Shown: positions 39,437-58,002 of the stretch, one piece after another
Layout of the letters: every line of letters starts with the position of its first letter
Numbering within the stretch: position 1 is the stretch's first letter
Assembly (NCBI RefSeq): GCF_000755245.1
Contig: NZ_BBMP01000011.1
Location: 62,001-126,000, forward strand
DNA length: 64,000 nucleotides
Source of the DNA: Halococcus sediminicola
GTDB lineage: Archaea; Halobacteriota; Halobacteria; Halobacteriales; Halococcaceae
Reading direction: 5' to 3'
Notes under the pieces: model-generated
What the model was told of the DNA's origin: nothing
Seen by the model: only the letters and a program-made list of their open reading frames with translations
Databases searched by the model: none
Translations under genes and position numbers: made by a program

Positions 39437-39790
39437 TCAATCGGCGCGATCGGTTCGCTGGCCGTCCGAAACCGCCGCGTCCTCGGCGGTCGCCACGCCG
39501 TTGACGAGTTCGTGAATCCCGACGACAAGCGCCGGCACGACGATCATGAAGATGTGTTCTTCGATAGGAATACCCAAGAGATCGACGCCGGTGCGCAGTC
39601 GGATCTCGAAGACGCCCACATGGAGGGTGTACCAGTCCCAAACGTACGCGATCGGGTAGAGCGCCACGACTGTTCGGGCGGCCCGTTTGAGTGACCCGGT
39701 GTAGGTGAGCAGCGCGAGCGCGGCCGACCCGAAGACGACCTCGGTCACGAGGTACGTGTACGGGCCGAACACCCCGATGTCCGGCAACAT
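39437..39790 (-). CDS. Stand-alone lycopene cyclase domain protein
   Basis: A 117-residue membrane protein with about three helices and the motifs of one CrtYc/CrtYd-type lycopene cyclase domain (YPIAYVWDWYTLHVGVFEIR, DLLGIPIEEHIFMIVVPALV). Full archaeal cyclases carry two such domains in tandem; this protein has one. It may pair with another copy, or act on a different isoprenoid such as a bacterioruberin precursor. ATG 39790 is chosen because the upstream frame lacks hydrophobic or acidic character. It is divergent from the CBS-HPF gene. Confidence 0.75.
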   Translation of the reverse strand: MLPDIGVFGPYTYLVTEVVFGSAALALLTYTGSLKRAARTVVALYPIAYVWDWYTLHVGVFEIRLRTGVDLLGIPIEEHIFMIVVPALVVGIHELVNGVATAEDAAVSDGQRTDRAD

Positions 39791-39924
39791 CTCCGTGGGT
39801 AGGCGCGCGAGCGACAAGTATCCACGGTCGGTTTCGGGATGCTCGACGACGAAAATATCGGTCGAGCGATGGTTTTGAGCAAAGTGTTGATTAGCCCCGC
39901 CGTCGAAGGGTGTGGAGTGGGAAC

Positions 39925-41067
39925 ATGAATATTGCCGATATCGCAACCACTGACCACGCCGAAGTGAGCGCCGACCAGCGCCTCGGAAAGGTTCGGGCGC
40001 GCTTCGAGGATGAGAACCCGCGTGGCCTCATCGTGACCGACGACGGTGAGTACGTCGGCGTCATCACCCAGCGCTCGCTGATGCAATCACACGTCGAAGA
40101 CTCGACGAAGGCGAACGCGCTGATGACCTCCGCTCCACAGGTCGAACGCACGGCCGACGTGCGGGAGGTCGCGCGGATGCTCGTCGAGGGCAACACGAAG
40201 GTCGCGCCGGTCTTCGAGGGCGATTCCCTCTGGGGCATCGTCACCGCCGACGCCATCCTGGAGGCAGTCCTCGACAACCTCGACGCGCTCGTCGTCTCAC
40301 AGATATACACCGACGACGTCATCGCCGTTTCGGAGGACACTCGCGTGGGCCGAGCCATCAACCTCCTGCGCGAACACGGCATCTCCCGACTCCCAGTTGA
40401 AAACGAGGCGGGCTATCTCACCGGCGTGGTCACGACCCACGACCTCGTGGACTTCGTGGTGCGCAACATGGACCAGCCGACCGAGGGCGAGCGCTCGGGC
40501 GACTCGGACAGGATGCTCGACATCCCGGTCTACGACCTGATGAACTCGCCCGTCGAGACCGCCTCGCGCGACGAGTCCGTGCGCGAGGCCGTCACGCGGA
40601 TGCTCGACAGCGACTACAACGGCTTGGTCGTCACGTCCCCGGAAGACGACCGCACCATCGACGGCGTCCTCACCAAGACCGACGTGCTCCGGGCGCTGAC
40701 GTTCACCGAGGAGGACCACATGGACGTCCAGATAACGAATATCGACCTGCTCGACACCATCACCCGCGAGTCGCTGCGCGAGTCGGTCACACAGGTCACC
40801 GACAAGTTCCAGGAGATGCAGGTCCACCACGCCCACGTGCGATTCCACAAACACAAGGAGAAACTCCGTGGGACGCCGCTGATCCAGTGCCAGATTCGCC
40901 TCCGGACGAATCAGGGCCAAGTCGCCGGCACGGGCGAGGGCTACGGCGCCGAGAGCGCCTTCCGGGTCGCGCTGGACAAACTCGAACGGAACGTCCTCGA
41001 ACGCAAGGGCATCAGAGCGGACGAACAGCGCCGCGGGCAGATCCTCAAAAAGCTCAACGAGATCTGA
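39925..41067 (+). CDS. CBS-domain protein fused to an HPF/RaiA-like ribosome-binding domain
   Basis: A 380-residue protein. Residues 1-265 hold four CBS motifs (two pairs): RGLIVTDDGEYVGVITQRSL, KVAPVFEGDSLWGIVTADAI, ISRLPVENEAGYLTGVVTTH and YNGLVVTSPEDDRTIDGVLT. Residues of about 270-380 resemble HPF/YfiA hibernation factors (MDVQITNIDLLDTITRESLR, HAHVRFHKHKEKLRGTPLIQ, ending FRVALDKLERNVLERK). CBS pairs bind adenine nucleotides, and HPF domains bind the small ribosomal subunit and stop translation. The fusion suggests a ribosome factor gated by energy charge. ATG 39925 is preferred to 39910. Confidence 0.85.
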   Translation: MNIADIATTDHAEVSADQRLGKVRARFEDENPRGLIVTDDGEYVGVITQRSLMQSHVEDSTKANALMTSAPQVERTADVREVARMLVEGNTKVAPVFEGDSLWGIVTADAILEAVLDNLDALVVSQIYTDDVIAVSEDTRVGRAINLLREHGISRLPVENEAGYLTGVVTTHDLVDFVVRNMDQPTEGERSGDSDRMLDIPVYDLMNSPVETASRDESVREAVTRMLDSDYNGLVVTSPEDDRTIDGVLTKTDVLRALTFTEEDHMDVQITNIDLLDTITRESLRESVTQVTDKFQEMQVHHAHVRFHKHKEKLRGTPLIQCQIRLRTNQGQVAGTGEGYGAESAFRVALDKLERNVLERKGIRADEQRRGQILKKLNEI

Positions 41068-57063: not shown

Positions 57064-57867
57064 TCACTCGTGGTTTTGCAGGCGCTCGACGCTTTCGATG
57101 AGCGGATGGTGGGCGTAGTCGACCACCGTGATGTCGTCGATGGTCGAGAGCCCCTCGTTGCGGGCGGTCTCGGCCATGCCGAGTTCGACCTGCTCGTCGA
57201 CCACGATGACGTAGGCGTCCATCTCGTCGATGCCCGACTGGGCGGCGGCCTTGACTCTGTGATGACCGTCGGCGAGCAGCAGTTTTTCGCCCCCGTTGTC
57301 GATCACCACGAGGGGTTCGGTCAGTCCGTGTTCGAGTTCGTAGCTCCGGCCGTCGAGTTCGTCGCCGTAGACCTTCGACTGGGTGGGCGTCAGGTCGTCG
57401 AGCGAGACGCGCCGTCGCTCCTCGCGCGTCGCGACGCCGTGGATGTTCTCGAGCGTGCGCGAGAGTTTCCCGACTTTTTCCGGCGTGGCGCGCTCGATCT
57501 GGCTGCGCACGACGTCGGTGTTGGCGATGATGCCGATGAGGTTGCCGGCGTCGTCGACCACGGGGAGTTTCTGGATGCCCGAGCGCAGGATGACGCGCGC
57601 GGCGTCCGAGAGCGCCATCTCCGGGTGCGCGACCACGAGGTCGTCGGACATCACGGTGAAGACGAGCGCGTCGGCGTCGGCGAGCAGGAGGTCGCGGGCG
57701 CTGACGAACCCGATGCAGTTCCGGCCGTCACAGACCGGCAGGCCGCTGTGTGCTTCGCTCTCGGCGATACGGCGTGCGACCGCCGCGACCGTGTCGTCGG
57801 GCGAGACGGTGGCGACCTCGCGGGTCATGTAGTCTTCGACCCGTGGCTTCTCGCTTCCTTCGGCCAT
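57064..57867 (-). CDS. CBS pair fused to a ParB/Srx-like domain
   Basis: A 267-residue protein. Residues 10-125 form a CBS pair (VEDYMTREVATVSPDDTVAA, VMSDDLVVAHPEMALSDAAR, GIQKLPVVDDAGNLIGIIAN). Residues of about 150-240 match the ParB/Srx superfamily, with DDLTPTQSKVYGDELDGRSY and LLLADGHHRVKAAAQSG. Some stand-alone archaeal ParB-like proteins (SerK) are free-serine kinases, while others bind or cut DNA. The CBS pair would add control by adenine nucleotides. ATG 57867 is supported by a TATA-like GCTTTTG about 25 bases upstream. Function open. Confidence 0.82.
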   Translation of the reverse strand: MAEGSEKPRVEDYMTREVATVSPDDTVAAVARRIAESEAHSGLPVCDGRNCIGFVSARDLLLADADALVFTVMSDDLVVAHPEMALSDAARVILRSGIQKLPVVDDAGNLIGIIANTDVVRSQIERATPEKVGKLSRTLENIHGVATREERRRVSLDDLTPTQSKVYGDELDGRSYELEHGLTEPLVVIDNGGEKLLLADGHHRVKAAAQSGIDEMDAYVIVVDEQVELGMAETARNEGLSTIDDITVVDYAHHPLIESVERLQNHE

Positions 57868-58002
57868 TGGTGAGCACTCGCCGTCGGTGGACAAAAGCCT
57901 CCCGCTCGGATGCCGGTTGGAAGCGCGCCCGTTCGTCGACGAAATCGCCCGACAGCGAAGCGATCGTGGGTCGTTCGTCACGCATCGTCCACAGCCGACG
58001 TA

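Follow-up and report, generated by a model that had tools for sequence, protein, structure and literature searches.

A very probable HibA ribosome hibernation factor, with four CBS units and an HPF-type domain, in Halococcus sediminicola

Gene and domain architecture

The 64,000-nucleotide stretch of the Halococcus sediminicola genome analysed here (the window; NCBI RefSeq assembly GCF_000755245.1, contig NZ_BBMP01000011.1, positions 62,001 to 126,000 of the forward strand) contains, at 39925–41067 on the + strand, an open reading frame (ORF) that starts with an ATG at 39925, ends with a stop codon at 41067 and codes for a protein of 380 amino acids. This gene very probably encodes HibA, the archaeal ribosome hibernation factor in which a CBS module precedes an HPF domain, and is referred to below as hibA. 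The ATG start is backed by the orthologues, which begin with M(N/D)I, and the reading frame is kept at 63–92% protein identity across 23 aligned orthologues; because the frame is kept in this way and the full length of the protein matches solved homologues, a chance origin of the CBS-HPF fusion is excluded.

The CBS module consists of four units with approximate limits, all of which, like the remaining features of the gene, lie on the + strand: CBS1 (residues 1–57, 39925–40095) has a degenerate nucleotide motif, GVITQRS; CBS2 (residues 58–118, 40096–40278) has the motif GIVTADA, in which the acid is one position off; CBS3 (residues 119–180, 40279–40464) has the intact motif T170-x-x-D173; and CBS4 (residues 201–260, 40525–40704) has the intact motif T250-K-T-D253. 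CBS3 and CBS4 are separated by a loop (residues 181–200, 40465–40524) at the position of the loop of Pyrococcus abyssi HibA that is directed to the peptidyl transferase centre (PTC); the predicted local distance difference test (pLDDT) score is low at residues 184–193 and this is the least conserved segment of the protein. The module is followed by an HPF/RaiA-like domain (residues 267–380, 40723–41064) that is predicted to be arranged as strand, helix, three strands and helix, and in which the codons of K311, E312 and K313 (40855–40863) belong to the hairpin formed by strands 2 and 3, close to its tip.

A search of Pfam with the full-length protein recovers all four CBS units (E = 2.8e-39) and places Ribosomal_S30AE at residues 281–361, the latter with a score of 23.2, 0.5 bits below the gathering score of 23.7. 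When the C-terminal 121 residues are searched alone, Ribosomal_S30AE scores 25.8, 2.1 bits above the cut-off, and the C-terminal domains of 29 of 30 orthologues also belong to this family at E up to 0.1. Among the 25 of 31 NCBIfam matches listed, all are of the CBS type and far under their cut-offs.

Family assignment and predicted fold

The window protein matches chain H of PDB 9sr9 over residues 3–377 of its 380 (E = 2.1e-43; 1.5e-63 in a profile search), and its C-terminal 114 residues alone match 9sr9 at E = 1.8e-5 and the entry 9l96 at E = 5.8e-17. Judging from the chain length of 392 amino acids and the architecture, 9sr9 chain H is probably P. abyssi HibA. The chain was deposited under the molecule name ‘Dehydrogenase', which looks like a long-standing misannotation. 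The name HibA dates from April 2026 and was given to a ribosome hibernation factor of CBS-HPF architecture that is present in 47% of archaeal genomes (PMC13324472); neither Haloferax nor haloarchaea is a word of its main text. Since the family is already described, the window protein is an ordinary member of it and the CBS-HPF fusion is not new. The closest named relative is from Halococcus morrhuae (92% identity), which is also the upper limit among genomes of the same genus.

P. abyssi HibA (Q9UYR4) shares with the window protein the order of four CBS units and an HPF/RaiA domain, an end-to-end alignment, the intact motifs of CBS3 and CBS4 and, in the alignment, a loop of equal length before CBS4. 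The haloarchaeal CBS module is the more acidic by residue count (net charge −26, compared with −8 in P. abyssi), and the hairpin of the HPF domain reads KEKLRG in haloarchaea and NEKFRG in P. abyssi. In the alignment, no large gap separates the window protein from 9sr9 at either of the two archaeal HPF insertions.

In the full-length model, built from 24 sequences (pLDDT 81.3), four CBS units are followed by the strand-helix-three-strands-helix domain. Foldseek searches with this model gave only CBS-type proteins among the 50 matches listed, with no HPF match there, and for this reason the C-terminal part was modelled alone: the AlphaFold2 model of the last 121 residues, from 30 sequences, has a pLDDT of 81.7. 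This model has the HPF/RaiA fold. In VIA-align, rows 1–32 of 50 are all of the HPF/RaiA/pY type, with bacterial and chloroplast HPF/RaiA on top and Escherichia coli HPF (6h4n) superposed at Z = 12.5 with a root mean square deviation of 2.2 Å over 94 residues, and further down, at Z of 7.5 or less, most rows are double-stranded-RNA-binding domains whose arrangement is similar in part; Foldseek with the same model finds the HPF/RaiA family from E = 3e-5. A profile search with the C-terminal domain did not reach the bacterial HPF sequences in the PDB. Thus, the preliminary description of this DNA, made from the letters alone, read the protein correctly as four CBS motifs ahead of an HPF-like domain in one chain of 380 residues, a reading borne out by the Pfam CBS and Ribosomal_S30AE matches, the models and the match to 9sr9, and the check that it proposed, a structure prediction of the C-terminus against HPF, gives an HPF-like fold for the model of the last 121 residues.

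With bacterial HPF/RaiA/YfiA the window protein has the C-terminal fold in common, but these proteins lack a CBS module and their sequence similarity to it is only marginal; in bacterial long and short HPF the HPF domain is N-terminal or stands alone, whereas here it comes after the four CBS stretches. The model of the CBS module resembles archaeal MJ1225, AMPK gamma and the archaeal CBS proteins Dri (9e6q/9e7f) and SriA-D (9znf/9zng/9zni), which are ribosome-bound according to the entry titles and for which no HPF domain is described in the material consulted. Dri consists of two fused CBS modules, compared with one CBS module and an HPF domain in the window protein.

Distribution and two haloarchaeal clades

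The own genome (3.76 Mb, 27 contigs) has one HibA; five other matches span CBS regions only, at 28–33% identity. The hibA product is also the sole match above the Ribosomal_S30AE cut-off in this genome (E = 5.7e-5). Phylum-wide, a search with this Pfam model (PF02482) at E = 0.01 matched 31 of 295 genomes, and the own genome, found when searched alone, was not among them; the model is therefore weak for archaeal members, and it was dropped as a census tool in favour of a protein query. With the latter, a match is present at E = 1e-10 in 38 of the 41 genomes comprising the own genome and its nearest relatives (27 of 27 among the more complete ones) and, class-wide, at E = 1e-20 in 291 of 292 genomes, both counts including a second paralogue.

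This paralogue was delineated with a tree. From 130 loci (L057–L186), 128 contain an ORF of 330 residues or more (L147 and L164 are short) and 126 of the products are distinct; together with two sequences from the PDB and the window protein, these were used for a FastTree reconstruction with a midpoint root, the support values of which were not inspected. The window protein falls within the main haloarchaeal group and the protein of PDB 9l96 within a second haloarchaeal group, denoted here HibA1 and HibA2, respectively (labels of this study). Intermediate branches (L146, L148, L149, L150, L151, L152 and L183) were excluded from the column counts given below. The 9l96 sequence is 71% identical to those of L142 and L186, both of the HibA2 group. 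The protein of 9l96, 9l98, 9l9c and 9l9v shares its architecture with the window protein (E = 1.7e-65) and differs from it in belonging to the separate clade, whose Gly-rich loop before CBS4 exceeds that of the window type by up to about 25 residues (part of the 9l96 loop was not printed). With L142 as the query at E = 1e-70, a threshold that also lets in L149 of genome G027, placed by the tree outside the HibA2 clade, a HibA2-like gene is found in 45 of 145 class genomes, some of which have two or three copies. A literature search returned no paper on PDB 9l96 and none on the structure of a haloarchaeal hibernating ribosome.

Genome G026 (locus L143), a haloarchaeal genome that is 98% complete, yielded HibA2 segments only and no match to the window-type HibA. 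At L148, a candidate for a larger fusion was considered and set aside: the long frame upstream of the HibA part overlaps another open frame, methyltransferase-like by eye, which makes a fusion unlikely.

Ribosome hibernation and the predicted nucleotide site

The action of HibA has been studied in Thermococcales. When P. abyssi cells are stressed, HibA is seen in their 70S ribosomes; its HPF domain lies in the channel of mRNA and tRNA and its CBS module occupies three positions on the 50S subunit, docking as a plug rather than serving as a sensor alone; P. abyssi HibA inhibits translation in extracts, and deletion of hibA in Thermococcus barophilus delays recovery and leaves about 60% fewer 70S ribosomes (PMC13324472). 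By analogy, the window protein is expected to bind both ribosomes and nucleotides, and would hold the inactive 70S ribosome together and protect it until growth resumes. The hibernation role proposed in the preliminary description is supported by both this family member on the 70S ribosome and the HPF/RaiA proteins at the top of the fold matches. The window HibA would then show how haloarchaea likely store their ribosomes, and extends a family whose published structure is from Thermococcales to a group that is genetically tractable through Haloferax.

The residues T170 and D173 of CBS3 and T250 and D253 of CBS4 are invariant in all 85 distinct window-type sequences, in which CBS1 is without the acid and that of CBS2 is mostly shifted. 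The T-x-x-D motif presumably contacts the ribose. Across the protein, the mean majority fraction is lowest in the PTC-loop segment (0.66), intermediate in the CBS units (0.76–0.77) and highest in the HPF core (0.85) and the tail (0.87). In P. abyssi HibA, one nucleotide is bound per CBS module, at the CBS3/CBS4 interface, and the protein binds AMP (dissociation constant 12 µM), ADP and ATP (PMC13324472). The intact motifs agree with such a single site in the window protein, where the CBS3/CBS4 interface would probably bind one adenine nucleotide, AMP best, and nucleotide binding could possibly control the binding or release of HibA.

The preliminary description went further and saw in the fusion a direct energy-to-ribosome switch. 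This claim has support in part: the motif is intact in 85 of 85 sequences and AMP is bound with the above affinity in P. abyssi. Against it, neither the conformations of P. abyssi HibA nor their distribution changed with AMP, the one additional state seen with ATP was only weakly populated, and the authors describe nucleotides as having no clear effect on ribosome binding (PMC13324472). A switch in which AMP or ATP, bound to the CBS module, starts or stops the binding of the HPF domain to the ribosome is accordingly a doubtful proposition, to be entertained tentatively.

Possible control by lysine acetylation in the HPF hairpin

A different means of control is suggested by HVO_2384 of Haloferax volcanii, in which lysines reported to be acetylated are those numbered K311 and K313 (PMC12607858). 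The orthology of HVO_2384 to the window protein is drawn through two other Haloferax species (L116 and L117): the L116 product has 380 residues, aligns with the window protein without gaps and has a mass of 42,504 Da and an isoelectric point of 4.93, compared with the 42,521 Da and 4.87 reported for HVO_2384 (PMC12607858), values in keeping with the orthologous group to which the window protein belongs. Because L116 matches HVO_2384 and aligns gaplessly, the two residues map to the window codons at 40855–40857 and 40861–40863. Both are Lys in the window protein and, in the model, they stand beside the hairpin turn at residues 315–316. In P. abyssi HibA, uS12 and decoding bases are contacted by an insertion that sits between the equivalent strands (PMC13324472), so that the K311/K313 hairpin tip would be the place of this decoding-centre insertion, an equivalence taken here from the strand order and not from a superposition.

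Acetylation of K311 and K313 might thus tune ribosome binding and link Pat2 and the acetyl-CoA state to haloarchaeal hibernation. This idea draws on the Lys at both positions, with the numbering matched via L116, and on the proximity of the hairpin tip to the P. abyssi contacts. The lysines are, however, not universal among the 85 window-type sequences: at position 311, 67 have Lys and 14 have Asn, and at position 313, 78 have Lys and 5 have Arg. Among the 14 HibA2 rows, 8 carry Asp and 6 carry Lys at position 311; of 23 further rows (9sr9 and 22 loci that lie outside the main clades or far from them), 16 have Lys and 6 have Arg there. Moreover, deletion of both archaeal insertions left the inhibition of translation in vitro unchanged (PMC13324472), and in the tested complex wild-type Pat2 left HVO_2384 unacetylated (PMC12607858). 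We consider such tuning unlikely. Somewhat less likely still, and frankly speculative, is the broader scheme under which haloarchaea regulate HibA by reversible acetylation of K311/K313, beside or instead of nucleotide sensing, with the task split in many species between two paralogues that differ in the PTC-directed loop. A literature search for the combination of acetylation and HibA returned PMC12607858 as the only relevant paper, and in the content consulted the observations of this paper and of PMC13324472 are left unconnected.

Genomic neighbourhood and an improbable role in DNA replication or recombination

Upstream of hibA and divergent from it lies a lycopene-cyclase-like gene (39437–39946, − strand; Pfam Lycopene_cyc just below the cut-off), the longest ORF of which overlaps the hibA start; downstream and convergent is cox3, followed by cox1. 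Several observations weigh against the assignment of hibA to ribosome hibernation: the gene adjoins cox3 and the lycopene-cyclase-like gene and not translation genes, its product is no more than about 30% identical to P. abyssi HibA, the relative solved as 9l96 is a member of the other paralogue clade, and P. abyssi HibA and its Thermococcus kodakarensis homologue were pulled down with replication and recombination proteins (PMC3820547).

The last of these, together with the association of RadB reported for P. abyssi HibA (PMC3820547), would fit a main role in DNA replication or recombination, with RadB, GINS and GAN as partners and ribosome binding as a secondary property; radB is indeed present in the hibA flank at 59 of 80 haloarchaeal loci (L057–L136, several of them cut by contig ends). 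The lycopene-cyclase-like gene is equally conserved there (58 of 80), and the three Halococcus-type loci (L057–L059) have no radB in the flank, and the radB neighbourhood was for these reasons rejected as functional evidence. In addition, the best RadB match of the own genome is on another contig, no radB match was found near hibA at any of 20 loci outside the class (with a haloarchaeal RadB query that may miss distant RadB, and with several of the loci short), and both the HPF fold and the structures of P. abyssi ribosomes (PMC13324472) point to the ribosome. A primary function in DNA replication or recombination is therefore highly improbable.

Elsewhere in the window, at about 57066–57873 on the − strand, a CBS pair is followed by a segment with the sequence LADGHHRVKAA that resembles a ParB/sulfiredoxin-type domain.
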